The position numbers and the translations under genes are program-made. Below are positions 3,883 through 55,297 of a DNA stretch of 64,000 nucleotides, one piece after another; the stretch's first letter is position 1, and each line of letters opens with the position of its first letter. The stretch is from NCBI RefSeq assembly GCF_004210375.1, contig NC_134830.1:67620326-67684325 (forward strand), given 5' to 3'. The stretch is from Tachypleus tridentatus. Lineage: Eukaryota > Arthropoda > Merostomata > Xiphosura > Limulidae. The notes under the pieces are model-generated. The model searched no databases and had not been told where the DNA came from. It was given only the letters and a program-made list of their open reading frames with translations.

Positions 3883-4131
3883 AACTGTTATGACTCTAAT
3901 CTGAGGGTCGCGGGTTCGAGTCCCCGTCACACCAAACATGCTCGCCCTTTCAGCCGTGGGGGCGTTAAAATATTGTGGTCAATCTCACTATTCATTCATG
4001 AAAGAGTAGCCCAAGAATTGGATGTGGGTGGTGATGACTAGCTGACTTCCTTCTAGTCTGATGCTGCTAAATTAGGGATGGTTAGCGCAGATAGCCCTCG
4101 AGTAGCTTTGCGCGAAATTCCAAAAAAGTAA
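3883..4131 (+). mobile_element. SINE-A copy
   Basis: GAGGGTCGCGGGTTCGAGTC (B box), AACATGCTCGCCCTTTCAGC, GGTGGTGATGACTAGCTG and CAGATAGCCCTCGAGTAGC. The head is altered. Confidence 0.9.
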
Positions 4132-8761: not shown

Positions 8762-8993
8762 TGTTTGTTTGTTTTGGATTTCTCGCAAAGCTACACGAGG
8801 GTTATCTGTCCCTAATTTAGCAGTGTAAGATTAAAGGAAAGGCAGCTAGTCATTACCACCCACCGCCAACTCTTGGGCTACTTTTTACCAACGAATAGTA
8901 GGATTAACCGTCACATTATAACGCCACCACGGCTGAAAGGGGTGTGTATGTTTGGTTTGAAGGGGATTAGAACCCGCGACCCTTGACTTATGG
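8762..8993 (-). mobile_element. SINE-A copy, head truncated
   Basis: Minus strand, from the AAAC-repeat tail to GGGTCGCGGGTTCTAATCCC. The head end is replaced by other sequence, and part of it lies in the 180-bp tandem duplication. Confidence 0.9.
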
Positions 8994-9291
8994 TGTAGCC
9001 ACACGGCTGTAACATAAGTTCCAACATTCTCTTTATAAACCTAGCTAAATAAGACACACATACTAAAATATTCGAACCTACGAACAAGCGATAAATTTGC
9101 TACCACTTTTCGCTGAAAGGGGTGAGTATGTTTGGTTTGAAGGGGATTAGAACCCGCGACCCTTGACTTATGGTGTAGCCACACGGCTGTAACATAAGTT
9201 CCAACATTCTCTTTATAAACCTAGCTAAATAAGACACACATACTAAAATATTCGAACCTACGAAGAAGCGATAAATTTGCTACCACTTTTC
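8932..9291 (+). repeat. Tandem duplication, two 180-bp units
   Basis: 8932-9111 and 9112-9291 are identical except for about two single-base differences. Each unit starts inside the SINE-A (GCTGAAAGGGGTG) and ends in unique sequence (ACCACTTTTCG). Confidence 0.97.
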
Positions 9292-10317
9292 GCAGAGTCA
9301 TGCACACATTATAACAAATAAGGCTGGTGAGCTGAACTGCCATTGGGAAAAAGGCGAAAGTTTCGCGAGGATTACATCTAAGCGATAAGTAGAACCACGC
9401 ACTGATACAGAAACTGGCGTTTACTTGGACTTTTTTGGTAACGAAAATAAACGGTTAAAAAAAACATAATTTTTCGTAGGTTTATTGTCGAAGATATGGG
9501 TGTGGCTCAGTTTTAATTGAAGGGTGTGTAATATTCACACTGTCTTGTACTTGGAGATCTGAACAAACATGTCCTTTTAAACGTAACAGCTCAGTTTCAG
9601 TTAGTTAAATCATTTTGTCCAAAATACTTTATCCGGCACTAAATATGCGAAATAATTTGATTTACTTACTAATGCTTCTGCCTTTGAGTGTTACTCGTAT
9701 GTTTTAAAGTCGCTTTCACACCTGCTATTCAAGTTTTTCACTGAATTCGTTCTAGCTCTTTGCATATATTCAGATAATTCTATGTTTACTAACCTCAAAG
9801 CTAGAGGTTTTCTTTGGAAACAATTATGCCAGTGTAGAAAGGTTATCTATAAAATAAAGGCAAGTGAATCACTGAAAAGCAGAATGGTATTTTTTTTATT
9901 CTTAAGCCAACTAGCTTATTAAACTCTCATTAGATTAACCATTACATTACTTAGAAGATTCATAGAATGTACGTCCATACGTCTCAGAGATTCATTTTTA
10001 AAAAAACGTGTATCTTAAAACGACTTTTAGTTTTTCCTGGAAGACAGTTTTTTTAACCCGATTCAAATTGCACGTAATATCATTCTTTTACATTTAATCT
10101 TAGCTCGTTACGCCTGGATACATGTGGTGATCACATTATAAATATTATTTTTTCTAAATGTGAAGTAGCTTTATTATAAACAGATAAAAACATTTTACAA
10201 AACGCACACTAATATCATGATGGCGAGGATATAACTGAAACGTCTCCTGTAGTCTCGTACCCACGTACACTCTCGTTCCAAAATTATGTGCCCAACAATG
10301 GCCAGCTACAAATTATC
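9292..10317. other. Intergenic, nothing recognised
   Basis: No SINE or coding signal seen. Confidence 0.5.
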
Positions 10318-10861: not shown

Positions 10862-11263
10862 TCAGCGCTGAAAGAAATTCAAAACTATGCCTTAGCTGAC
10901 TAAACAAGGAAGCTAATTAGACCTAAAAAGTGCGGTGAACATCAAATGAGAATTAATATTTACCTTCATAATCATCAAAGATTAGCATCATTTAATGAAG
11001 CACGTAACTTGATTTGACACAATCTCGAAGCTTTTGAAACTTAAATGTGAAAAAGAAAATTTTTTACTCAATATATCACTTCAATGAGTATGTAGCCTCT
11101 GTTCAAATATTTTTTCTCAAGTCTTTCAAAATCAATTTAAAAAGTATAAACTATTTAGTATGTAAATGAAACATCTATTATTTTTGGTAAAATGAACAGA
11201 AAATATTAGAGTTCTCTTAATGTTATAAAAATCTAAGGATTTTTATTTTTTTACTTGTTATTG
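10862..11263. other. Intergenic, nothing recognised
   Basis: AT-rich, no feature recognised. Confidence 0.5.
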
Positions 11264-11600
11264 TTTGTTTGTTTTGAATTTCGTGCAAAGTGTTTGTTTT
11301 TCTTATAGCAAAGCCACATCGGGCCATCTGCTCAGCCCACCGAGGGGAATCGAACCCCTGATTTTAGCGTTGTAAATCCGGAGACATACCGCTGTACTAG
11401 CGGGGGACTTCGCACAAAGCTACTCTAGGGCTATTTGTGCTAGCCGTCCCTAATTTAGCAATGTAAGACCAGAGGGAAGGAAGCTAGTCATCACCATCTA
11501 CCGCCAACTCTTGGGCTACTCTTTTATCAACGAATAGTGGGATTGACCGTTACATTATAACGCCCCCATGGCTTGGAGAGCGAGCATGTTTGGTACGACG
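11264..11600 (-). mobile_element. SINE-A copy interrupted by a SINE-B
   Basis: SINE-A tail pieces lie at 11264-11289 and the body from about 11407 to 11600 (tRNA head missing). The interrupting SINE-B is listed separately. Confidence 0.9.
11290..11406 (-). mobile_element. SINE-B copy nested in SINE-A
   Basis: Minus strand: CCCGCTAGTACAGCGGTATG head, AATCAGGGGTTCGATTCCCC, tail AGCAGATGGCCCGATGTGGC. It is flanked by TTCGTGCAAAG and TTCGCACAAAG, an imperfect 11-bp duplication of SINE-A sequence. Confidence 0.88.
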
Positions 11601-13868: not shown

Positions 13869-14145
13869 AGTTTGTTTGTTTTGGAATTTCGCACAAAGCT
13901 ACTCGAGGGCTATCTGTGCTAGCCGTCTCTAATTTAGCAGTGTAAGACTAGAGGGAAGGCAGCTAGTCATCACCACCCACCGCCAACTCTTGGGCTACTC
14001 TTTTACCAACGAATAGTGGGATTGACCGTAACATTATAACGCCCCCACGGCTGGGAGGGCGAGCATGTTTGGCGCGACTCGGGCGCGAACCCGCGACCCT
14101 CAGATTACGAAGCGCACGCCTTAACGCGTAGGCCATGCCGGGCCC
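13869..14145 (-). mobile_element. SINE-A copy, full length, inserted in the Gypsy relic
   Basis: Head GGGCCCGGCATGGCCTACGC, B-box-like GGTTCGCGCCC, full body, and AAAC-repeat tail at 13869. Flanked by perfect GAGACACTAG at 13859-13868 and 14146-14155. Confidence 0.97.
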
Positions 14146-14216
14146 GAGACACTAGGGTATTCTCCTGATGTTTCCTCATATAACAAATAACCATCAACTA
14201 GTATTTCAATAATACA

Positions 14217-15344: not shown

Positions 15345-15430
15345 TGTTTCGAGAAAAAAACTGCACACTGGGCTATCTGCGCTTTGCATATCAGGGATCT
15401 GATTCAGAATTGTAGTGTTTTATGTCTATA
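15345..15430 (-). mobile_element. SINE-C fragment, degenerate
   Basis: Minus-strand tail GCAGATAGCCCAGTGTGCAG plus a decayed middle. Confidence 0.65.
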
Positions 15431-17987: not shown

Positions 17988-18091
17988 TCTCAAAACGACT
18001 GGTATGGGTATTAACACGTTTACTAATAAAGCAGAGAACGTTCTGTACTTCATTAGTATAAGTATTAATACCCATAGTAGCCGTTCTGAGA
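17988..18091. repeat. 104-bp imperfect palindrome (fold-back), flanked by 13-bp direct repeats
   Basis: The 52-nt arms pair at about 42 positions and meet at the self-complementary GAACGTTC. The strongest blocks are TATGGGTATTAA and its complement TTAATACCCATA. The direct repeat CAACCTGAATAAA occurs at 17939-17951 and 18094-18106. A related single arm occurs at 10358-10415. Confidence 0.9.
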
Positions 18092-24291: not shown

Positions 24292-24375
24292 TCATTTGTT
24301 TTAGTACAAAGCCACACAACAAATTATTCGCACTCTGTTCACGGCGGATAATCGAACTCAATTGAGCTATGACTT
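24292..24375 (-). mobile_element. SINE-C fragment, degenerate
   Basis: Minus-strand tail TTGTGTGGCTTTGTACTAAA and a decayed B-box region. Confidence 0.6.
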
Positions 24376-26524: not shown

Positions 26525-26649
26525 TTATTTGTTTGGAATTAAGCACAAAGCTACACAAAGGGCCATCTGTGCTTTACCTATCACAGGTATCAAAACCCCG
26601 CTTTCTAGTTGTGCGAGTCCACAGACATACTGCTGTGCCACTGGTGAGA
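26525..26649 (-). mobile_element. SINE-C copy with target-site duplication
   Basis: Minus strand: CACCAGTGGCACAGCAGTAT head, GGGGTTTTGATACCTGTGAT, tail TTGTGTAGCTTTGTGCTTAA. Perfect AACTACTGTGA at 26514-26524 and 26650-26660 flanks it. Confidence 0.93.
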
Positions 26650-27037: not shown

Positions 27038-27049
27038 AAATTGATAAGA
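27038..27049. repeat. Target-site duplication of LINE copy 1, 3' side
   Basis: AAATTGATAAGA, identical to 33401-33412 and immediately next to the TCAA-repeat tail. Confidence 0.9.
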
Positions 27050-27174
27050 TTGATTGATTGATTGATTTAGTGTTTTATGGCACAAAGCAGCGAGGCTATC
27101 TGCGCCAGACATTCGGTAAAAATGTAAAAAAATAATAAAAAATAATAATAAATAAATGTAGTAATAGACATAAA

Positions 27175-27890
27175 TGGAATTGAAGGTAAAACAAAAAAGT
27201 ATAAAACCAATGTTGACACCTAGTCTACAATGTTAAGATAGAAGGCAGAGTATAAGAAGTTGTAAGGTATTTACTCTAGCAAAAAGGTAATGATCATAAC
27301 CCACCAGGAAGACTAACAGGTAAGTTCAAGAACCACCGTCAGTCACCTGAAGTTGGTCTTTCCAGTCCTGGTTCCGAGTTATGTGTCATAGCAACCAGTA
27401 TCAAAATGTAAAAGAATAGAAGTTTTAAAAGATACATAGCAAAATTGTAACAATGAGTAGCCAAATGTCCAGGAAAAAAGATAAAGTCAAGTAAATGGAG
27501 TAGAATTTGTAAAAGTAAATGAAGGTAAAAACAAAACAGCAATTAAAACAGAAAATGGTGTAAAAACCAATGGTGACATCCAGTCGTCAATGTTATAAAG
27601 GACTACCTGTAGCAGAATGGTAATGATCATAACCCGCCAGGAAGACTAACAGGTAAGTATAAAAACCACCGTCAGTCACCTGAAGTTGGTCTTTCCAGTC
27701 CTTGTTCCGGGTTATGAGTCAATATGGCCAGTACTAAAAAGTAAAGTAGTAAAAGTGTGAAATGATATGCAGCAAAAGTATAATAACAACTCGCCAGGAC
27801 GACTAACGAGTAGTTCAAACGGATAGTTCAAACAGTAGCGTTAGTCACCTGAAGTTGGCCTTTCCAGTCCTGGTGTCGAGTTATTTAATG
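27175..27890 (-). repeat. Tandem repeats in the 3' UTR of LINE copy 1
   Basis: A block containing CAGTCACCTGAAGTTGGTCT and TTTCCAGTCC recurs three times, starting near 27286, 27619 and 27780. The first two lie in a ~333-bp period that includes flanking A-rich sequence; the third is shorter and more diverged. LINE copy 2 lacks the block, so its 3' UTR is about 180 bp against about 930 bp here. Confidence 0.85.
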
Positions 27891-27981
27891 TTCTGGCCAT
27901 TGTCCAATTGAATGAGAGAGATTAAAATTGTAAAAAAAGGAACCACAATTAAAAAAGGTGTAATGAATAAATATGCAACAC

Positions 27982-30900
27982 TTAAATGAGATTAAAAAGA
28001 TTAATGGCCATTAAAAAATTAAAAACGTTATCAAGGTGGACAGAGTCACCATTACCAATAACACTGTCCAATGATACAGATTGACCCTGGGAAAAAATAT
28101 GTTTAAAATATTGCCGTCGTTGAGAATTGTAACGATGGCAAGAAAGTAAAACGTGGCTGATAGTGATTTGAGTGTTACACAAACTACACATTGGTGCATC
28201 AGTTCCAGATAAAAGAAAATGATGAGTTAAAAAACTGTGACCAATGCGTAGCCTAGTGAGAACAACTTCCTCCTTCCGAACTTTACGGAAGCTAGATGGC
28301 CAAAGTCCAACTTTGGGTTTGATTTGAAAAAGTTTGTTGTCGCGTTTCTCACTCCAAGTGGACTGCCAGCTGGCACGGAGCCGAGACTTGAAGACAACAC
28401 CATAGTCCATGTACGGAACAAGCATAGGAGTGATGGTGCTGAAGCAGACATATTTAGCTGCCATGTCTGCAAGCTCGTTCCCGCGAATACCAACATGGCC
28501 TGGTATCCAGAAAAAACTGGATTGAAGTAGCTGCTAATGAGAAATGGGCCAGTCGGTTTCGAATATCAGCGAGAATAGGATGTGAGCTAACGTGTAGCGA
28601 TTCCAAGGCAAGTATAGAACTAAGCGAATCAGTATAAATAGTGCAGTTGGAGTACTGCTCAGCTGCAATATGATCCAGGGCAAGAGATATGGTATACAGT
28701 TCAGCAGTGAACACAGAAGCTGTAGAAGGGATTCTGCGCGTAACTACGGACCCATAGCAAACCATACCAAAGCCCACTGAATTACCTGATTTGGAACCAT
28801 CTGTATAAATGGGAACTGAATGATTGTTTGAAAGATATTCATTGAATAAAAGACGGTACTTCCAATCTGGAGTATCTGCCTTTTTTTAGGTGACTGAAAA
28901 AAAGGTCACATTTGGGGGCTGTAATAAGCCATGGTGGGATGGGCCGACCTGTGGAATCTGCAATGTTATCCAAGGACAGACCCAATTCATCCAATTGCGC
29001 CCGGATGCGAAGATCAAATGGAGCAATGACAGATCGTCTGTTCTGAAAAAGTACTGCCCACCGAGGAAGGAAAACACATTTCCAGGTGGGATGCTTTGGT
29101 AAGGAATGAAGTTTCGAAGTATATTGTAAAGATAGCTGCAAACGGCGAAGGTGTAGAGAAGGTTCATGAGATTCAATGTATATACTTTGAACTGGAGAGG
29201 TACGGAAAGCCCCAGTGCAGAGTCGAAGTCCTTGGTGATGAATGGGGTCCAGCATCTTTAAGGCCGAGGGTCTGGCAGAGCCATAGACCATTGATCCATA
29301 ATCGAGTTTCGATCTAATAAGAGCACGATATACCTTTAACATTGAACAGCGATCTACCCCCCCGACTGGTAGAAGAGAGAACACGGAGGATGTTCAGTGC
29401 TCTTGTGCATTTGACCCGAAGCTGCTTTAAGTGTGGTATAAAGGTCAGTTTACGATCAAAGATAAGCCCCAAGAACTTGGTCTCCGGGACCACTGGCAGC
29501 AAAATTTCACCGATATGAAGTTCAGGATCAGGGTGAATACCCCGTCGACGGCAAAAGTGCATGCATACAGTTTTGGAGAGAGAGAAATTAAAGCCGTTCG
29601 CCAGAGTCCACTTCTGTACACAATTGCGGGCAGTTTGTAGTTGCCGCTCAATATATCTCATGTTTGACGACTGACATGAGATGTGAAAGTCGTCGACATA
29701 CAGCCCATTGGCAACAGTGAGAGGGAGTTGTTCAGTGATGGCATTTATCTTTATACTGAAGAGTGTAACACTCAATACACAGCCTTGAGGAACTCCAAGT
29801 TCCTGTACAAAAGAACGGGAAAGTGTCGAACCCACACGAACTTGGAATCTCTTGTCCATTAAAATTTTTTTAATAAACATGGGTAGATGGCCACGTAACC
29901 CATATGTATGGAGGTCTCGCAAAACGACATACCTCCATGTTGTGTCGTAAGCCTTCTCTATGTCAAATAATATTGATACAAGATGTTGGCGGTTGAGAAA
30001 GACTTCTCTGATAGATGTTTCAAGACGAATTAGGTGGTCTGTGGTGGAGTGCTGTCGACGGAACCCACACTGGGTGGGCGAGAGGAGGTTGTTTGATTCA
30101 AGGAACCAAACAAGACGAGCATTAACCATCCTTTCTAATGTCTTACAGAGACAGCTCGTCAAAGCAATTGGACGGTAGTTTGAAGGAATCTTGGGATCTT
30201 TCCCTGGCTTAGAGAAAGGTAAAATAATAGCCTGGCACCAGGCATCAGGAAAAACATTCTCCTGCCAGATCTGGTTGAAAACAATCAGAAGGACATCAAG
30301 AGAAGCAGGAGATAGATGGTGCAGCATGTCATAATGAATATCATCAGGTCCAACAGACGTACTGGCAGACCGATGAAGGGCCATTTTTAGTTCCACCAGG
30401 GTAAAGGGACAATTATAGTCAAAGAAACAGTCAGTTCGAAAGGAAAGAGGTGATCGCTCTGCCCGAGTCTTGATGGCCAGGAAGGTGGAGGAACAAGCAG
30501 AAGTACTAGATACCCGGCAAAAGCTTTCACCTAGAGTGTTAGCGATGTTCCGAACATCAGTCACCTCCTGACCATCAGAGAGTAAGATCGAGAGGGGGAC
30601 AGAATTGTAGTGCCCATTAACCTTTCGAATCCTGTCCCATATGATCTTGGAACTGGTGGTAGAAGATATGCTGGTTGTGAACTTAATCCAAGATTCCTTC
30701 TGGCTTTGACGTCTTACCCACCTAGCATGTGCACGGGCCCGTTGGAAAGCAACCCGGTTTGAAAGTGTGAGATATCTACGAAAAGTATCCCAGGCCAGCT
30801 TTTGAGCCTTCCGTGCTAAGTGGCAAGCAGGATTCCACCACGGACGAGGATATAGTGGAAAACGTGTCGAGGTTTTAGGAATACACTGAGCAGCTGCATG

Positions 30901-31702
30901 TGTAATACAGTCAGTTACCGCTGCTACACAGTCGTCTATTGACGGCTGATTTACGATGGCAGGATCAAGTTCTGCAAGAGCAGTGAAAGTGGACCAGTCT
31001 GCCTGATCCAGCTTCCACCGTGGCACGCGGGTAGGTTGGCATCGACCACGGCCAGTCTCTCTCAAAAGGATGGGAAAATGATCACTGCCTAGTGGATTAC
31101 TGTCAACCCTCCATGAAAAATGGGAGAATAATGAAGGGGAGCAAACTGAGAGATCAATAGCGGTAAAGGACTGACTAGGTGCATGAAAGTAAGTGGAAGA
31201 ACCAGTATTGAAAAGAGAAAGATTGTGATCAGAGAGCATCCACTCTACAGATCGGCCCCTCCCATCAATAATAGCACTTCCCCCAGAGGGGATGATGTCC
31301 ATTAAAATCCCCTAGGATTAGAAATAAAGATGGCAACTGTTCAACGAGAGCATCAAGATCTGATTGATCATATGTCTCTCCAGGGGACAGGTACAGAGAA
31401 CAAACAGTGATGGTATGACCCAAGGAAACACGGATGGCTACAGCCTCCAATGGTGTATTGAGTGACAAAGACAGGGTGGGCACGTGTTGATCAACCAACA
31501 GTGCCACCCCTCCATGTACTCGACCATCACACAACCTGTCATTTCTGTACAGAGAAAACTGCCGAATGGAGACAGTATCAGCAGTTTTGAGAAATGTTTC
31601 TTGTAAAGAAAGACAAACAGGATGGTAGGAAGCAATCAGCATTTTGATATCATCCAGATTAGAACGTAAACCTCGACAGTTCCATTGTATCAAGGTGGCC
31701 AT
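27982..31702 (-). pseudogene. LINE copy 1 ORF2 (endonuclease, reverse transcriptase, RNase H), four frameshifts
   Basis: Starts MATLIQWNCRGL at 31702. The endonuclease shows LQET, GGVALLV, LGDFNGHHPLWG and later GSDHFPI. RT shows SKPGKDPKIPSNYRPIALTS, FDIEKAYDTTW, GVPQGCVLS and YVDD (29700-29689). RNase H shows IYTDGSK, ELYTISLALDH and YTDSLSSILALES. The C-terminus has LTRLRIGHS then CSLCN...HVLLSC. Frame changes occur at the C5 run 31280-31284, C7 run 29357-29363, T7 run 28881-28887 and A6 run 28511-28516, each one base too long relative to the expected reading. I see no other in-frame stop over about 1,240 codons. The enzyme nicks target DNA and primes cDNA synthesis there. Confidence 0.9.
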
Positions 31703-31704
31703 TT

Positions 31705-32959
31705 TTAAGAACGGGTAGGTGAAGTGGCTGGAAAACCCTTCGGTTTACGACCACGTCTTTTTTCTTTACTGTCTTTAGTCGGAGGAGGTCTATCAACCTC
31801 CATGGATCCTGCTCTGGGTCGGGTGGGCAGGTTTTTGTTATTGGAAGGGGAATCCAGTGACTGAGGACGCGAACGAATAATTTTTTTGTCTCTTGTGGTG
31901 GGAGAAAAAGATGTATCAGAAGATATGCCTGTATTTGAAACTGAAGGACGTGGATCTTGAGGTTTGTTGGAAGGTATGGGAGGAACAGAGATGGGTGTGG
32001 AAGTCAATTCATCAACCTTTTAACCACGGAGGTCAAAAGGCTTTTCATTTATTTTGAAAACGATTCTCTTGGAGGCACAGAGAGATCTGTCTTCACTCCC
32101 ACTGTAGTTGTGGAATGAAGTGCAGCAGCATATGTCCGAGATGGAGTTGTGGACAGCAATTTCCGAGCCTCAGGATAACTAATGTTATGTGTTGTTTTCA
32201 AACGCTGCACCTCTTTTTCCTCCAACCATTTTGGGCAAGAATGAAAGTAAGAGGGGTGAGAACCATTGCAGTTTACGCAATGTGGGTTCATGTCACAGTC
32301 ATAGGCATCGTGGTCCTTGCCTCCACAACGAGCACATGTCAGGGAACCACGACAAGATGTCTTTGAGTGGCCGAATCTCTGACATTGAAACATCGAAGAG
32401 GGTTTGGTATGTATGGCCGAACCCTGCAAATGAGATAACCTGCCTTGATGGTGGCAGGTGCACGTGGTGAAGTAAATGTTAAAACGAGGGTATTTGTTGG
32501 CAGTGTAACTCCATCTTTGTGAGTGGAGATGCGCCTCACTGCAGAAACTCCTTGAGTGGAGAGACCAGCGAGAATCTCTGACTCGGGAACGTTCTTCAAA
32601 TTCCTTTCAACAATAACTCCTCGTGAAGAATTCAAGGTAGCATGGGGTGTAACCTCAATAGGTATATCCCCAATTGCCTTTGAATTCAAGAGGAGTTCAC
32701 TGTGTTGGGATGTGGATGTTTCAACCAATATGTCACCAGATCGAAGTTTCTTTACTGACTTTGGAGAGCCAGCAAGTCCCTTTGGAATAAAAAAAGGGCA
32801 CATTTGCCCTAAAGGTTTTTCCAAAAGATAATGTAATATAAGAAAATGAGGTACGTGTGTTACTGATGTTGAAGATTGCTGTTCTGAGTATTCAAGACGT
32901 GGTTGCTTACCCATTGACTGTTTTTTTACAATTTTATTTAAATATTTTGGAGGATCCAT
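31705..32959 (-). pseudogene. LINE copy 1 ORF1 (Gag-like, zinc knuckles), frameshifted
   Basis: The start MDPPKYLNK at 32959 is chosen because copy 2 has the matching start (MDTP). The middle part resembles a Jockey-type Gag RNA-binding region (SRGVIVERNLKNVPESEI, then Y-I-P-N-P-L-R-C-F). Three knuckles follow: CFQCQRFGHSKTSC (CX2CX4HX4C), CARCGGKDHDAYDC, and CVNCNGSHPSYFHSC. A one-base loss near 32388 falls inside the first knuckle, so its first Cys is in one frame and the second in another. A further frame break with a stop lies near 32030. The tail is Pro/Ser/Lys-rich with a basic RRGRKPKG patch. The ORF1 stop is 2 nt before the ORF2 ATG. Confidence 0.85.
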
Positions 32960-33400
32960 AGGAAAAAGAAAAACTTTCGGTACCCACTGACCCCACCCAC
33001 CATGGAGCCCTACAAGGGGACGCACTACAAAGTCATGCAAGGACAATGCAGCAACGCCAGGGTTTCGTGAGCACTATACCCAAACACCAGCATCAGGCAC
33101 AATGTCCACAACACCCGTTGAGAACTTCCAACACTGGTACTTGGTTGACTCTAGCCCAAGTGGACCAGCCGACTGACCCAAGGGGGGCCACCCAAAGGCC
33201 GCCCGTCTACAGGAATTCGAGGCCAAAGTGGTGTGTTAGAGTTGTACCCCTCAACCACCAGGATCCTCTCCTCCCCTTCACGGGTCGCCACGCACAGCAA
33301 ACACGTGAGTGGATGTTTAGATTCCAGAGAAGGTAACCAGATAAAACAGAACCTTCCCTGGGAGGTCCCCTCACCATGTACAGGAATCCACACCGAGGGG

Positions 33401-33412
33401 AAATTGATAAGA
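33401..33412. repeat. Target-site duplication of LINE copy 1, 5' side
   Basis: AAATTGATAAGA, the partner of 27038-27049. Homology with LINE copy 2 stops at this border. Confidence 0.9.
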
Positions 33413-35213: not shown

Positions 35214-38200
35214 CTATAAAAATAAATAGAATATGCTGATAATTAAAAGGGGAAAAAAAGTGTAAACACAATACAATGTGAATAATGAAACATATTATAA
35301 AGTTAATGTAGGCATTTACAACCTGTATGTAAACATCAAAATTGTTGCTAAGTGCAAAGCTACACAATGGACTACCTGCGCTATGCCTAACGCAAGTATA
35401 AATCCTGCGTTTTAGCACTATATTGCTGTTAAGCCAAAGGGAACACGACAATGAAAAAATGCACTCATATTGAAAAACAAATTACTGTTATCATGTCCCA
35501 AATAATTTAAAATTTTTAGTAGCTCACAATTATTTTAACCACCAAATAAAAAATTGAAATAATATAACACTCTCTCAGTGACCCATGAAATTGAATTATA
35601 AAATATTGGTAAATTTTTTTATTTCATATTTTGAGTCTCACACCATAGTAATTATTAACAATAGCCTTTAACGTCAATTGCCTTCAAAGTTGAAAATCAG
35701 CCTATTAAGCTGGTGCCTTTAAAGCTATACATTCTCATATAGTCAATATTTATTTTTAGTACATTTTCTTAAAGGAATTGCAGACTACTGGATTACATGA
35801 ATCTTCCACATATAATGATGTATAATACTTTTTAAATATCTTAATATCAAAAAATTAAAGTATTCTGGTCTCCTGGAAAGGGACTTATCTTAAAGCTAGA
35901 ACATAAGTGAAGATTTAAAAGTTAGGACTGTTCTAGTATCATATTAACTACACTCCTATACAGTTCCATGCATTTGATGTCAACCTTTTTTTACAACAAA
36001 TTAGGCTTTTATCAAGTAATCCAATAATAAAATATATTTATATCCTTATCTCATGTTTTCTTCATACAAAACTATAATCAACAAATTTCTGATTCATGAC
36101 TGAAGATTAATTTGTATATAATGTAATATTTATCCTCCCTTAAACAGCTTTAATGTAATTATAAGAAAAAAGATCACACTTATTGATTTTTCTTTTCTGA
36201 ATGGATTTAAAATAAAAATAACTTGATATATTTTCATTTGTTGCAAAATTCATTAATACTTCCAAGTATGCATATATATCATCTGCTTGTTGGATTTCTT
36301 GGACTAGTTGTTCAGACAATAACAAATATTACTGAAACTAGAGAGCTACTGCTAATGGTAACTGGCCAAGGCGAAAAGAGATTGAACAAGCTTATAAAAT
36401 AGAATGAAAATGCAAGACTGCACCATAACTGTCCAGTTCCTTAACAAAAATTTAACTATCTTTATTTTTACCTAACAACAGAAATACATAAAAAATATTA
36501 CAAAAGTAGTCACCAAATACATGATATAGTCAAACAGATTCCCTTCTATCCTTTCTTTTCTCATGGTACAGTAAAACTATGAAGAAACAACATAAAGTGT
36601 TTGACTTCTGCTGTATTGCTCAACAGTGAAAGCAGCAAAATGGTTCTTTCCGAGTATAAGCTTGTGTCCTTTAATTCATTTAAACGAATGCATAACATTC
36701 AGGATACAGAGTACATTTGAACAGTGCTGAATTTTCACCCTGATGAACCAAGAACCTTTCAATTTAATGAGGTAAAAATTTATTGTCTTTGTATTACTCA
36801 AATATCATTTAAATATTATGATCAAGACTTCAGTCATTTCAATCTAAATGAACAACTTAGGGAAGAACTCGGCTGCTAGATTTGCCATTATAATGCCTTC
36901 AAGCAAATTGAGTCCAATTTATTACCAAGATGAAAGGTAGTCCAATAAAATATTAGATGGTCCTAATAAAGTCAGTGTTGTATGAGCTTTAATTTGAGTG
37001 CAAAGCTAATCAGTTTTCATAATTATTATATACAACCTATATAAATACATTCCAACAGTACAATAAGCAACAAAGTTAGGTATTTCCCTCTATTCCTTAA
37101 AAAAATTACAGATATTCACAAAATTGAAACAATAAAAAAAAAAGTTAAATGGTTTACAACTTTCCAGAGTAGCACAGGCATAGTTGTCATTCTCACCTTT
37201 ATTAAAAACTATATTTGCCTATTCCATGGAATTAATACTGAAAAACAAACTAAACTTACACATGAAAGAGTAGACTTCAATGAATGTCATTGTCTTACAT
37301 TGTGATGCTTGAGGACCTTATCACATAAATTTGTTGCACTGTTTCTGGTTATTCAACAGAAAAAGAAACACCAGGTGTCCCTAATGCTAGTAGGTTATAC
37401 TAAATAATTCAAAATTTTTACTTATGCAAGTGATTCAAATCACTGTTATTAGCATTTTCTTTTGTTTCCTATCATGTGTATTTTCAGGAGATAACTGTTT
37501 ATCTCTTAAAGCTCAAAAATATTTTTTTACTCTACCACAAATTTTGTAGAGTACTTGAAGAAGTTTCAGTCAGTACCTATTTAAAAAAAAACAACAAAAA
37601 AATACCTTTATAAGCATATTCTAGAGCACTAGAAATTGTCCTCATATCAGCCTCCATGCTTTTGGCCCAGTTCTCCACATCACCTAGTTCCTACAGTAAA
37701 CAAGACACAGCATATTTATAATAACACTTTTGCTACTTTCCCCTTCTTCATTCTTTGTTTTTGTCTAGTAATAACAATTATAAATAAAATATTAGTTTAC
37801 CACGAATTTCTTCGAAGCAATGATAAAATTATATTTGATTTATACAACTTCAACCACCTACTCTACCTCCAACTGTCCCTCACAGGCAAGCTTTAAAGCA
37901 TATAATGCTAAAATAATGGAATTCAAACCCTAAAGAATACAAACAAAACAACCCTAACAAACCCTGATCTTACTACAAGCACAAAATTTTCAACTAACCA
38001 CCATATCATATTGTTTATTATCTGTTGGTCATGCCACCTCTAAAGGTTACCTTAGCTAAGTAAATGGCAAATCAAATGATCTGTTTACATTTTTGGGTCA
38101 ATGGTTAGCACGATATGATGTGTATGTAATGTGGGCCTGGGACTGCCAAGAAATACTGTGACACTGATAAAACATATAGGTTGTTCTAAGTCAAATGAAG

Positions 38201-44200: not shown

Positions 44201-47200
44201 ATCTCCAACCCAATTAATTTAACTGCTGTTAATGAATTAAAAATAATTTAAATCATTTGGATTGCTGGTAATTAATTATTTATTCTAAGATTTTCATTAT
44301 GGTTTTAGAAAAAAAATTTTCTTGCACAACCAATATATATTATGTGTATATACATATGTAGATACATGCATGGCTTTTTTTTTTTTTTTAAGATGATGGT
44401 ATCCTAGGTGACATCGAATATTGTCAAGTTTCAGAAATAATTTAATGAGGTACCAGTGTAATGGAAACAGAAAAGAACATTTGGCATGTTGTGATTTTGA
44501 TATCAGAAATGCTCATGTTTATTTTCTGCAGAGAAACTTATGAAGACAGTTTCTGTTAAAGTAATATGCCTAGAACCAGTGATAACTTTCAATTTCAGTT
44601 AAATTACTCATGTGCTATTCTGAAAAAGTGTAACTAAAGTAAGCTGTCATTTAGTGAAAGTAAAATCCAGCATTTTATAGGAACTGCACCCTCAGGATTA
44701 TACAAATACATGTTATACTATCCTTTCTCACAAGAAAGCATTAAAAATGGCTTTCAAAATGATTTCAAAACAGCACTTCAGAACAGAGAGAGAATCTAAA
44801 AACACTGTATTTAAAGTTATCCTGATGACTGAGTATTCCAGGATTAATAAACAAAATTAGTGTAGAAAGTGCAAAAAAAACAAACTACCTGTGAAAATAA
44901 GCTATAATTAACTGAAGTAGTTAAGTGACTTTCCTGGTGTCTAATAATAGCTCCAGGTATGTTTTCAGAGAAAACAACAATAGAAAGGCTAAATGGTTTA
45001 GCTAAATACAAGTCCATACTAAAGATCAAAATATATTTTTTTTTCAGAGAACAATTAAAAATGAACATTCAACAATTCATTATGTCAAAAACCAAAACTA
45101 AAAACATTTACCATATGTGATACTTTCCATTTAAGTGTCAGACCACTTTATTACAACTCCCCACTTAATAAATGGTTGAATGGCACGTCAAATTCCACAA
45201 TAATATGAAAAGGTCTTAGTTGACAATAGCCCATATACTGAAATATATTAACTAAACAGGTTCCTGAAAGTTGATAAAGAAATTTAAGTGGTAAATGTGA
45301 TTTTCTAGTACATTCAACTAATGCTCAACAGTATTGAGGTCCAGTTATTGTTCGGGAAAAGAATGATCAGCAATGTTACTTTTCAGTCTAAATAATCAAT
45401 TTCTCACTAGTGGTTGGTTGTTTAGCATTTATTAGAGCAAAGCAACTGGGCTATCTGTACCAAACACCTGGTAAAAAGATAAAAAAGTAAAATCATTAAA
45501 ATATGTAAAAAGGAATCATGATAAAACAAAACATAGTCCAATTTTCAAATCAAAATCAAGTCAATTCAAATAGAGTTAAAAAGACCAATGGCCCTTAAAA
45601 ATTTAAAAATTCAACTGAGGTGGACTGTGTCACCAATGTCAAGGGTGAACCTGTGGTAAAAGTATGCTTAAAATGGTGCTGTCACTCTCGATTGTAACGA
45701 TGGCATGACAGTAAAATGTGGGCTATTGTGACCTGAATGTTACACAGACAACACACCGATGCATCAGTACCAGATAAAAGAAAGCGATGAGTTAAAAAAC
45801 TGTGACCAGTGCGTAGCCTAGCCAGAACAGCTTCCTCTTTCCGATCCTTTAGGAAGCAAGACAGCCAAAGAGCAAGAGAAGGTTTGATCTTGAAAAGCTT
45901 GGTATCATGCTGTCCACTCCAAGTTGACTGTCAACTTGCATGGAGCTGAGCCTTGAATACTGGACCATAGTCCATGTATGGAACAGGCACTTTGGTGATA
46001 ATACTAAAGCAGACAGACTTAGTTGCGATATCAGCGAGCTCATTCCTGGTATCTAGAAAAACTGGAGATAAGTAGATGATAGAGAAAAATAGGCCAAATG
46101 GTTTTGAATATGAATGAGAACAGGCTGAAAACTAACATGAAGCAACTCCAGGGCCAATAGAGAGCTAAGCGAGTCAGTATAAACAGTACAGTTCTTGTAC
46201 TGCATAGCTTCTATGTGATCCAGGGCAAGAGAAATGACAGACAATTCAGCAGTAAACACAGAAGCTGTAGAGAGGATACTGTGGGCAAAACTGAATCACA
46301 AGAAACCATGGAAGAGCCTACAGAGTTACCTGATTTCAAACCACCTGTATAAATGGAAATGGAAGGATGGTTTAATATATGTTTGGCAAATAGAAGATGA
46401 TACTTCCAATTAGGAGTATCTGCTTTTCTCAGATGACTCAAAGAAAGGCCACATTTGGGAATGATAATTAGCCATGGTGGGATGGCCTGATCAGTAGATA
46501 CAGCTATGTTATCCAAGGACAGACCCAGTTCATCCAACAGTGTCTGGATACAAAGGCCAAAAGGATGGCCCACTGAGGAAGGAAAGCACAAACCCAGGTG
46601 GGATGCTGTGGTAAAGGTTGAAATTTTGAAGAATACAGTAAAGACAAACAGCAAAGGTATAGAGAAGGTTCATAAAACTCAGTGTACAAACTCTGGATTG
46701 GAGAAGTGTGGAAGGCCTCTGTGCAGAGCTGAAGACCCTGATGATGAACAGGGTCCAACATCTTCTAGGCTGAGATCCTGATACAGCCAGAAGCCAGAGA
46801 CTTATATTCCAGTTTTAATCAAACAAGGACACAATAGATCTTTAAGACAGAATATTGATCTACTCCCCAAGAGGTGGAAGAGAGGACATGGGGGATGTTC
46901 AGTGCCCTTGTACACTTTATACGTAGCTGCTTGATGTGTGGAACACAGGTCAGCTTATGATAAAAATAAGCCATGCAAACTTTGCCTTGGGGAACACAGG
47001 AAGCACAACTTCTCTGAGACAGATTTCAGGATCTGGGTGAATATCCCATTCATGGCAGAAGTGCATGCAAATGGTTTTGGAGCGAGAAAAGGTAAAACTG
47101 TTTGCTGTAGTCCACTTCAGAAAGCAACGAGGGCAATCTGTAGCTGCCATTCAATAAACCTCATGCTCAATAACATAAAATGTGGAAGTCATTAAAGTAG

Positions 47201-50200
47201 AGATTGTTTGCAACTGTAGGGAGAGTTGTGCACTGATGGCATTAATCTTTATAATGAAAATGTAACATTCAAGACACAGACCTGAGGGACTCCAAGTTCT
47301 ACCTGTGTCTTGGTAGCTGAAAAGTTGGGGAACAAAGCAGAAGTGCTAGATAAACGACAAAAGCTTACGCTGAGAATACTGGCAATGCTCTAGGCATCAA
47401 CAACTTCCTGGCCATCAGAAAGCAAGATTGAAAGGGAGGAAAAAGTATACCACCCATTAATCTTTCAAATCTTGTCCCATATAACTTTGGAACTGGTGGT
47501 AGAAGAGATATTAAGGGGTGTATTTAATCCAAGATTACTTCTGGATTTGACATCTGACTTGCTGAGCACATACATGATACTACTAAAATGCAATGCGATT
47601 TGAAAGTGTGGGATACCTACGAAAGGTATCCCAGACCCATTTTTGGGCCTTCCTCACCATGTGACAGGCAGGATTCCACCAAGGATGAGAAAACTGAGAA
47701 ACATATCAAGGTTTTAAGAATACACTGAGCAGTTACCTGGATAATACAGTCAGTTGACTATCAATGGTTTACAAACAGTGACAGGATCAATTTCTCAGAG
47801 AGAAGTGAAAGAGGGCCAGTTGGCCTGGTCCAATTTCCATCAAAGCATGTGGGTTGAGTGGCATCCACCATGGCCAGTCTTTCTCAAAATGATTGGAAAA
47901 TGATCATTGTCCCATGGGTTATTGTCAATCCTCCAAGAAAAGTGAATGGAAGCAGATAGAAAGATCAAGAGCAGTAAAAGACTGACTAGATGCATGAAAA
48001 TAAGTATAAGAACCAATATTGAAGAGAGATAGGTTGTGATCCAAGAGCATATGCCCTATAGAAAGACCCCTCCCATCAACATCATCACCACCCTAGAGGG
48101 GACTATGTCCATTAAAATCCCTTAAAATACCCCAGGATTTAAAAGAGAGATGGTAACTGCTTATTGATGGCATCAAGGTTTGACTGATCATGGGTCTCTT
48201 AAGGAGTCACCAAGAGAAAACAAATAGTGATGGTACAACCCAAGAAAGCATGGATGGCTACAAACTCCAAGGGTGTATCAAGTGGCAAAGACAGGGTGGC
48301 ACATGCTGATCAACCAACAGTGCTACCCCACCATGAACTCATCCATCAGACAACCTATCATTTCTGTAAAAAGAAGACTGCCAAAGGATGTCTGTATTGG
48401 CAGGTTTCAGAAATGTTTCCTGTAAGGAGAGACACATGGGATGGTAAGAATCAAATCCTTAATGCCATCTATATTTGAACGAAAACCATGATAGTTCCAC
48501 TGGATCAAAGTGGCCATTTTTATTTACACAGAGGAGGATGTGACAGGGAGCCCTTCTGGTTTTGGCTATGTTTTTTTTTTTCTTTATTAAACAAAGGTCT
48601 ATCAACCTCCATGAATTCTGCCCTGGGATGACTAGGCAGATCTCCGTCTGTGAACAAAGGTTCCAGCAACTGAAGACATGATTGAATAGTCATTTTACTT
48701 TTTGGAGTTGCAGAAGAGAAGGGACCTGAGGAAATACCTGCACCCGAAATGAAAGGAAGTGGAACCGGGCAGTCACTGGAAGCAGTGGCAAGGACAGAGG
48801 TGTAAGTAGATGTAGATTCATCAACTCTTTTAATCATGGAGGGCATAAGATTCTACAGATGTTTTGCAAGCAATTCTGCTGGAGGCATGAAGAAATCTGT
48901 TTGCACTCCCACTGTAGCAGCTGAATGGAGTGCAACAGCATATGTCAGAGATGGAGTTTAAGACAATCCTTTCAGATCCTCTGGGTTGGAGATATTATTT
49001 ATAGTCTTCAAGTGTTGCATCTCTTTCTCCTCCACCTATTTAAAGCAAGAAATAGAGTAAGAGAGGTGTGGACCACTAAAGTTAACACAGTGTGGTTTCA
49101 GTTTGCACTCATAAGCATTGTGGTCTTTGTTACCACAACAAACATGTTAAAGAATCATGACATAAGGTTTTTGAGTGACTCAACTGTTGACACTGGAAAC
49201 ATCTGAGAGGGTTGGGAATGTATGGTTGTACCTTACAGTTAAGATAACCAGCCTTGACTGTAGCAGGGTGACATGGTAATGTAAACATCAATATCAGAAC
49301 ATTAGTAGGCACCTAATTCTGTATTTGAGTGGAGATTTGAAGTACCAAAAAATGCCTTGGCTGGAGAAACCAGAGAATATTTCCAAATCAGGAATGTTCT
49401 TTAAATCCCTCTCAACTATTACTCCTCTGGATGTATTCAAAGTTGCATGGGGAGTAACCTCTATGGGTATATTCCTAATGGTCTTCAATTTCAAGAGGTG
49501 TTTGGTATGTTATGGTGAAGATATTTCCATCAAAATGTCTCCAGAGTACTTCTTTACTGACTTAGGAGAGCCAGCAAGCCCCTCTAATCTCTTTTGAATA
49601 AAAAAGGGGATTTCTAAGGATAAGGAATGGATAGTCAAAAATCAAAATGTAGAATTTGACTGCAATGTTGACTGTACAACAGAGTCATCCATGTGTGGTC
49701 ATTTTCCAATAACATTTTTTTTTAATTTTTTTCATAAATTGGGGTATCCATAAGAAAGATGCTACGATTCAGTGTCCACTAACCACACCCAACATGGAAC
49801 CCTAAGAGGGGATGCACTACAATGCCAGGGCTTCATGAGCACTATACCAGAACACCAGTATCATATACAACATCCATTGAAAATGTCCAACACTGGTATT
49901 CAGTTAACCTTAGACCAAATGGGCCAGTCGACTGACCCTGGAGGGACCACCCCAAGGCCACTTGTCTACAGGAATTCAAGGACAAAGTGGTGTGTTAGAG
50001 TTGGGCTTCTGAACCCCCAGGATCCTCTCCTCTCCTTCACAGGTTGCCATGCAGAGTAAACAAGTGGGTAGATCCCACTTGTCTGTACTGGGACAATGAA
50101 GGTTCTGTACTTTCAGTTTACCTCCTCTGGGAGGTCCTCTCACCACATACAGGAATCCACCTCAAAGAGTTTTCATAAGTTAAGAGGATTGCTGTGTCAT

Positions 50201-54740: not shown

Positions 54741-55180
54741 GCACCGGCATTTTAAGTAAATATCGATCAAACCAAACCAAAAATAATATTTGCATATGTT
54801 TCAGTCACTGTTGACAATATTAAGTTAACTCGCATCGTTTTTGATGTATGCACGTATATATTATTTGGTAAACTGGCAAAGTTAAATTAAAAGCAAAGCT
54901 TTGTAGTCTCCAAAGGAATTTAACGTAAATGCCTCTAGTATCATGGTATAATAATCACATGGGACATAATAACGTGTAAGAGAATCTAATACTACACAGT
55001 AAGAAGATTAAAGTAATGTAGATAAGACCGTCTGAATTCTGTAATGTTTATGTTAGTGGTATATGCGTATTTGACTACTAGTGAAATTGGATATAAGACA
55101 TTAATGCGATGGTAAAACTCAAAACTGTGTACCTAATCCATCATTTTAAAACTGACATACAGAGAATCAAAAACAAAGGG

Positions 55181-55297
55181 TCCCTCGTTGGTACAGCGGT
55201 AAGTCTACGGATTTACAACGCTAAAATCAGGGGTTCGATTTCCCTCGATGGACACAGCAGATAGCCCGATGTGGCTTTGCTGTAAGAGAAAAAAAAA
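55181..55297 (+). mobile_element. SINE-B copy (good reference copy)
   Basis: GTCCCTCGTTGGTACAGCGG head, ATCAGGGGTTCGATTTCCCT B box, tail CAGATAGCCCGATGTGGCTT then TGCTGTAAGAGAAAA. Confidence 0.93.

Follow-up and report, generated by a model that had tools for sequence, protein, structure and literature searches.

The pairing of a SINE with the 3′ tail of a LINE is already known, and as far as Table 1 of PMC3747384 and the account in PMC4176376 go, the CR1 and RTE clades predominate among such pairs. The precedent for the present case is the Gecko SINE of Aedes aegypti, which carries the tails of I-clade LINEs (I-74_AAe, MosquI, and others; PMC3747384 Table 1). The same table pairs SINE2-1_Acar with Vingi-2_Acar. 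In addition, UnaL2/UnaSINE of eel and ZfL2-1/ZfL2-2 of zebrafish are described as stringent-type LINE systems of the L2 clade, with recognition shown by assay, and the loop is reported there to decide recognition by the zebrafish L2-clade enzymes (PMC4176376). Furthermore, the lepidopteran PxSE5, with a head related to 5S rRNA, is assigned the partner PxLINE1.1 (PMC8010984).

In this study, we analyzed a 64-kb stretch of Tachypleus tridentatus DNA (contig NC_134830.1, 67,620,326-67,684,325; hereafter the window), which holds many SINE copies and two minus-strand LINEs, and found a probable new pair to add to those above. As with Gecko, the host is a protostome and the SINE tail is apparently that of an I-clade LINE. 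Gecko is tRNA-headed; the present case differs from it in having two head types and a stem that differs between SINE groups, and the two are likened by description, not by sequence. Vingi is placed in the I group, and SINE2-1_Acar/Vingi-2_Acar is likewise a SINE with the tail of an I-group LINE, but it comes from a vertebrate and is again likened by description only. The 3′ stem-loop resembles that described for UnaL2 and ZfL2, and the eel SINE also has the end of its LINE. However, those LINEs are of the L2 clade with assayed recognition, whereas the hairpin here is predicted and the loops of LINEs and SINEs differ. PxSE5/PxLINE1.1 is likewise an arthropod SINE with an identified partner LINE, and differs in its head as described.

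The following features belong to the first LINE.

27050..33400, minus strand: LINE1, about 6.35 kb, near full length, with broken frames
27080..27105, minus strand: LINE1 3′ hairpin, GCGCAG-AU-AGC[CUCGCU]GCU-UUGUGC, from RNA folding and from a covariance model of SINE tails (the SINE-only model)
27050..27065, minus strand: LINE1 terminal (TCAA)n repeat, read in the sequence and also present in genome copies

LINE1 is considered near full length because two other genome copies (L049 and L056) start at the same 5′ end in the alignment. By eye, it is flanked on both sides by TCTTATCAATTT (33401-33412 and 27038-27049). Its end on the minus strand, from 27106, reads GGCGCAGATAGCCTCGCTGCTTTGTGCC and then ATAAAACACTAAATCAATC..., just as the earlier note had given it, and the hairpin is followed by CATAAAACACTAAA(TCAA)n. 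In the Pfam search, pieces of LINE1 matched Exo_endo_phos (9.2e-10) and RVT_1 (3.3e-33), and one piece of ORF2 matched RNase_H (E = 5.5e-6, 27.0 bits against a cut-off of 25.8); a second RNase_H piece alone stayed below the cut-off (E = 0.0038), and the zinc-knuckle piece of ORF1 matched no Pfam family. Pieced together, ORF2 has the APE endonuclease, RT, and RNase H set of the I group. RNase H in ORF2 is typical of this group, and the Jockey clade is not known to carry it. Thus, the RNase H domain argues, at the level of domain content, for placing LINE1 in the I group rather than in the Jockey clade. The proposal of a Jockey-group lineage in the earlier note is therefore doubtful in its name, but the link of a LINE lineage to several SINEs stood. 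In the 3′ UTR of LINE1 (27274-27884, minus strand), there are about three repeats of about 330 bp with the core CCAGGACTGGAAAG...CTTCCTGG; alignments suggest that the number of units varies among genome copies (L009-L038), and the core is kept in the older copy L059.

The second LINE was found by self-BLAST.

45408..50073 (about 45.4-50.1 kb), minus strand: LINE2, with approximate outer limits
45435..45460, minus strand: LINE2 3′ hairpin, matched by the SINE-only model at E = 0.0073, with the outer stem decayed in this window copy

In self-BLAST, LINE2 aligns with LINE1 in two blocks, with identities of 70.7% and 72.2% (27992-29802 with 45576-47299; 30458-33314 with 47298-50073).

The SINEs were sorted into the groups A, B, and C, as in the following examples.

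13870..14147, minus strand: SINE-A copy, one of 11 main copies, with head, central part, shared hairpin, and A-rich/AAAC tail
4085..4113, plus strand: SINE-A hairpin with a fully paired stem (GCGCAG/UUGCGC), a training row of the model
55180..55295, plus strand: SINE-B copy, hairpin at 55255-55282 with the stem CAGCAG/UUGCUG, model match 1.4e-5, a training row
26528..26648, minus strand: SINE-C copy, 0.4 kb downstream of LINE1, hairpin at 26543-26572, a training row
35352..35381, minus strand: decayed SINE-C-like hairpin, SINE-only model E = 4.5e-7, outside the training set

The consensus sequences of SINE-B and SINE-C are 74% identical over 119 nt (E = 6.6e-15), and their head models match each other's copies (best E = 1e-9 and 1e-12; three C copies at just 0.0016-0.037). 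Judged by their heads, SINE-B and SINE-C are thus one family, so that two head types carry the tail and not three as had been thought. The single strong match between the SINE-A and SINE-C consensus is the last 46 nt (78%, E = 6e-7), the rest being 7-nt matches at E = 2; thus, the tail is their common part. ARAGORN read the SINE-B consensus as tRNA-like with an unsettled anticodon, and read neither the SINE-A nor the SINE-C consensus as tRNA. No tRNA was found in the 64-kb window, and a GGTTCGA-type B box is visible by eye in the SINE-A and SINE-B consensus. The kinds of SINE ends quoted in the earlier note are present, and its SINE-B string is matched exactly at 55258 and at 508, but the SINE-A and SINE-C strings are composites that occur letter for letter in no copy inspected.

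At 11230-11600, a SINE-B copy sits within the tail of a SINE-A copy and so seems younger, and its target duplication resembles SINE-A tail sequence. A 185-bp tandem duplication at 8932-9296 (98% identical) spans part of a SINE-A copy, and 104 bp at 17988-18091 match their own reverse complement at 81%, like a palindrome.

The ends of the LINEs and SINEs were compared in several ways. With at most one mismatch, CAGATAGCC has 25 occurrences in the window where 6.7 would be expected, and none of 100 shuffles reached this count. In local alignment with the consensus tails of SINE-A, SINE-B, and SINE-C, 0, 4, and 0 of 500 dinucleotide shuffles scored as high as the LINE1 tail, and 0, 0, and 1 as high as the LINE2 tail. 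The copy-against-copy tests for SINE-C were weaker (six tests, p = 0.003 to 0.11), and both tests using C26 were not significant (0.067 and 0.11). The SINE-only model, trained on 28 of the 29 SINE tails (X15 was left out) and run over the window with filters off, recovered all 28 training tails and found the LINE1 end at E = 0.0033 and the LINE2 end at the E value listed above, with the next match at E = 0.98. Five matches outside the training set had E < 0.01, namely the two LINE ends, two SINE-like matches (35352-35381 and 15353-15382), and 24304-24333. The last one (minus strand, E = 0.0008) is not among the SINE copies catalogued. Furthermore, in the 2.17-Gb genome (205 contigs), the 36-nt end of LINE1 was found 2,732 times with at most three mismatches, against 0 for the reversed control, and GCGCAGATAGCC has 87,292 occurrences, compared with 5 of its reversed form.

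These results show that the SINE 3′ end is homologous to the LINE 3′ end. The common tail claimed in the earlier note was thus confirmed, since the SINE-only model finds both LINE ends and the tails of LINE1 and LINE2 align beyond shuffles. Convergence or a chance likeness of short ends is a most improbable explanation: the common part is just about 26-30 nt long and some of the SINE-C copy-against-copy tests fail, but the window count of CAGATAGCC, the SINE-only model, the genome count of the LINE1 end, and the alignments to the consensus tails go beyond shuffles and reversed controls, by which chance similarity was ruled out. We consider it likely that these elements represent "stringent" LINE/SINE parasitism via the common 3′ hairpin of an RNase H-bearing LINE lineage.

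LINE1, LINE2, and all three SINE groups end in a potential hairpin of the form GCRCAG-AU-AGC[loop]GCU-UUGYGC. Its outer stem has 6 bp and its inner stem 3-4 bp, the two being separated by a 2-nt bulge (AU); the loop is variable, and a tandem repeat of 4-nt units comes after the hairpin. A typical SINE-A ends in GCRCAG-AU-AGC[CCUCGAGUA]GCU-UUGYGC, SINE-C in GCACAG-AU-AGC[about 10 nt]GCU-UUGUGC, and SINE-B in CAGCAG-AU-AGCC[6 nt]GGCU-UUGCUG; the loop has 6 nt in the LINEs versus about 6-10 in the SINEs. The LINE1 hairpin folds at -15.7 kcal/mol (z = -3.3), better than all 200 shuffles, and the SINE-B hairpin at 55.2 kb at -13.2 kcal/mol (z = -2.7, 2 of 200 as good). The remaining five ends, from SINE-A (two), SINE-C, the second SINE-B, and LINE2, showed no clear excess over shuffles when folded singly (30 to 176 of 200 equalled them, with 176 for the window copy of LINE2). 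That just two of the seven tails folded clearly beat shuffles counts against the stringent reading.

Pairing among the 29 SINE tails is above chance in three of five measures. Standard pairs fill 83.9% of cells versus 78.9% in shuffles, a share reached by none of 500; moreover, 20 cells changed on both sides versus 9.6 (1 of 500), and the covariation score is 0.307 versus 0.226 (0 of 500); when the partners are slid, pairing falls to 32-49%. However, the number of doubly changed pairs (reached by 110 of 500 shuffles) and that of further pair types (211 of 500) were not above chance; these two are the measures rated least prone to false alarms by the tool, and they too speak against the stringent reading. 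A set of 24 SINE tails plus the two LINEs gave a similar outcome (double change 50 of 500, further pair types 143 of 500); this set leaves out A24, A7, C17, C15b, and X15, all of which are in the 29-tail count. The 17 LINE-only ends are 94.8% paired without a covariation signal (454 of 500 shuffles pair at least as well), which is a further point against; these ends are too conserved to tell, and thus give no verdict on covariation. At pair 3 of SINE-A, 24 copies read by eye have 12 G-C, 6 A-U, 2 G-U, and 4 A-C (Fisher p = 0.03). This exchange of G-C and A-U may stem from CpG decay of the two arms or from the presence of two subfamilies, and so it also weakens the case. The stem difference between SINE-B and SINE-C is not of the CpG-decay form, but it is one lineage difference. 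The shared end is thus predicted to form a conserved stem-loop, and an Rfam search gave 0 matches.

The association of the hairpin with LINE ends was then followed in the genome. Among 30 fetched copies of the LINE1 end, 29 had longer LINE1 sequence upstream and L030 had just the last 49 bp, and TCAA repeats ended 28 of the 30. The SINE-only model found all 30 of these 3′ ends at E = 0.0065; the loci had been picked by that exact tail, so that this recovery counts as one observation. Thirty further loci were fetched with the ORF2 C-terminal protein (150 of 16,122 first-look candidates scored), and the hairpin was at the LINE end in 24 of them, of which the model found 20 (E up to 0.16) and inspection by eye the other four, which are decayed; one of the 24 (L039) is the LINE2 of the window. 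The hairpin was absent from the other six (L043, L045, L049, L054, L061, and L063), another point against the stringent reading, and perhaps in some of them the locus or the element ends first. Where SINE-type hairpins were met otherwise in fetched loci, a head was present in all 19 inspected (omitting L002, which overlaps L001, and L080-L083; L003 and L004 are duplicates). Identical tail matches were seen in pairs on C9 (135354506/135431942, 77 kb apart) and C11 (24307526/24697482, 390 kb apart), and these are perhaps segmental or assembly duplicates. A viral-contig scan for the SINE-A tail gave 0 matches, the letters of the tail were found in no open-licence paper text, and no paper title naming these elements was found in the open-licence literature.

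Other LINEs of the genome bear on which one is the direct partner. The sister family LINE3 has five copies (L059, L084, L085, L088, and L089, the last four being four of six loci fetched together), which end in GGCACAGATAGCC[TA]GTAGCTTTGTGCCAATAAACATGAAA and then TACC-like repeats, varying from copy to copy. In three of the five, GUA stands ahead of GCU as in SINE-A and SINE-C. Three LINE families, diverged by about 28%, thus have the hairpin as their 3′ terminus. In addition, the stem of L058 is GTGCAG/UUGCAC, and some older LINE copies, e.g., L040 and L062, end in CCAA. Of seven LINE2-like tails found genome-wide, four retain all five visible stem pairs (TGCAG/UUGCA paired in three, CGCAG/UUGCG in one), and three, including LINE2, are incompletely paired; this tally covers the stem pairs within the search pattern, from the second stem base inward. 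An AGCAG stem like that of SINE-B was sought in the LINE2 family and occurs in 0 of the 7 tails.

Single LINE copies were scored locally against the window SINE consensus, as raw scores without significance values. Against SINE-C, the five LINE3 copies reached 31-38, LINE2 28, and LINE1 24; against SINE-B, LINE2 reached 35, LINE1 22, and LINE3 15-23; SINE-A showed no preference (LINE1 28, LINE2 28, LINE3 25-31). With the SINE-only model, four LINE3 copies (L084 27.9, L059 26.9, L085 26.4, and L089 25.0 bits) scored above LINE1 (22.8) and LINE2 (21.4), L088 was not among the matches at E 0.01, and the older copy L068 of the LINE1 lineage reached 25.3 bits. Thus, LINE1 may not be the closest partner of the SINEs. 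That a sister LINE is the direct partner, as suggested earlier, has gained candidates, since LINE3 fits SINE-C and LINE2 fits SINE-B better than LINE1 does, but the repeats of LINE3 are TACC-like and not AAAC.

One explanation is that the direct partners differ, SINE-C depending on LINE3 (TACC), SINE-B on a LINE2 type, and SINE-A on an unidentified or LINE1-like element, so that the tails track LINE subfamilies. We regard it as possible, though with less than even chances. The highest scores, the GUA shared by three LINE3 copies, and the bits of the four LINE3 copies point this way; on the other side are the rawness of single-copy scores, the missing L088, the bits of L068, the indifference of SINE-A, the lack of a SINE-B stem among LINE2-like tails, and the terminal repeats of LINE3. 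A more far-reaching version is that an I-group LINE lineage split into LINE1, LINE2, and LINE3 with diverging hairpins, that each lineage of SINEs adapted its own stem and loop to a different one of these LINEs, and that the SINE tails record which LINE was active when; we consider this somewhat unlikely.

The terminal repeats of the LINEs are TCAA, CCAA, or TACC, versus AAAC in the SINEs. In the search for a LINE tailed with AAAC that had been proposed, such repeats were seen on two fetched copies (L069 and L071), but the type looks rare: LINE-type ends with AAAC repeats gave 71 matches genome-wide with at most three mismatches, by eye mostly CCAA or mixed, versus the 2,732 LINE1 ends. A LINE ending in a SINE-A type loop was also sought, and of 74 pattern matches the six inspected were two SINE-A copies and four headless loci; in the latter, about 2 kb upstream held no match to the window LINEs and no open frame longer than 122 codons. 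The differing loops and terminal repeats of LINEs and SINEs count against the stringent reading. They would also be expected if the tail had passed between SINEs, or from a SINE to a LINE, and an unrelated LINE that reads poly(A) or AAAC moved the SINEs, since the repeats of the SINEs are unlike those of the abundant LINE. However, the hairpin ends three divergent LINE families, as expected of an ancestral LINE end, and we hold this spread to be improbable. Because the loops are unlike, a sister LINE is favoured as partner, or recognition of the bulge and inner stem.

In addition, four insertions of about 50 nt (L080, L081, L082, and L083) consist of just the hairpin and an A-rich tail between apparent target duplications, which by eye are exact in L082 (TTCAAGTATTTTG) and have one mismatch in the other three. 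Their start was set by the search pattern, and we claim no truncation preference for the hairpin base. They suggest that the 3′ end alone is a possible insertion product.

For the reading of stringent parasitism, the sequences show homologous ends, pairing of the SINE tails above shuffles, genome-wide consistency, and, by eye, target-site duplications at LINE1 and the four short insertions. Under this stringent reading, the tail would originate from the LINE, and the SINEs would move by the LINE enzyme. The reverse transcriptase of the LINE would bind the hairpin in LINE or SINE RNA, and priming on nicked target DNA would start from the terminal repeat, with copying then proceeding inward.

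Such pairs are an established kind, but there are few reports of them from this branch of LINEs. Here, the LINE lineage of the pair bears RNase H, its ends are counted in the thousands and the tail words in the tens of thousands across the genome, and the compact hairpin comes with natural variants of stem and loop. Furthermore, the SINE groups may prefer different sister LINEs. If the SINEs were re-tuned to sisters, the compensatory stem difference between SINE-B (CAGCAG/UUGCUG) and SINE-C (GCACAG/UUGUGC) would be enzyme-driven, and if the sister preference is true, the rule by which the enzyme chooses its RNA would be directly testable with RNA of 26-30 nt.
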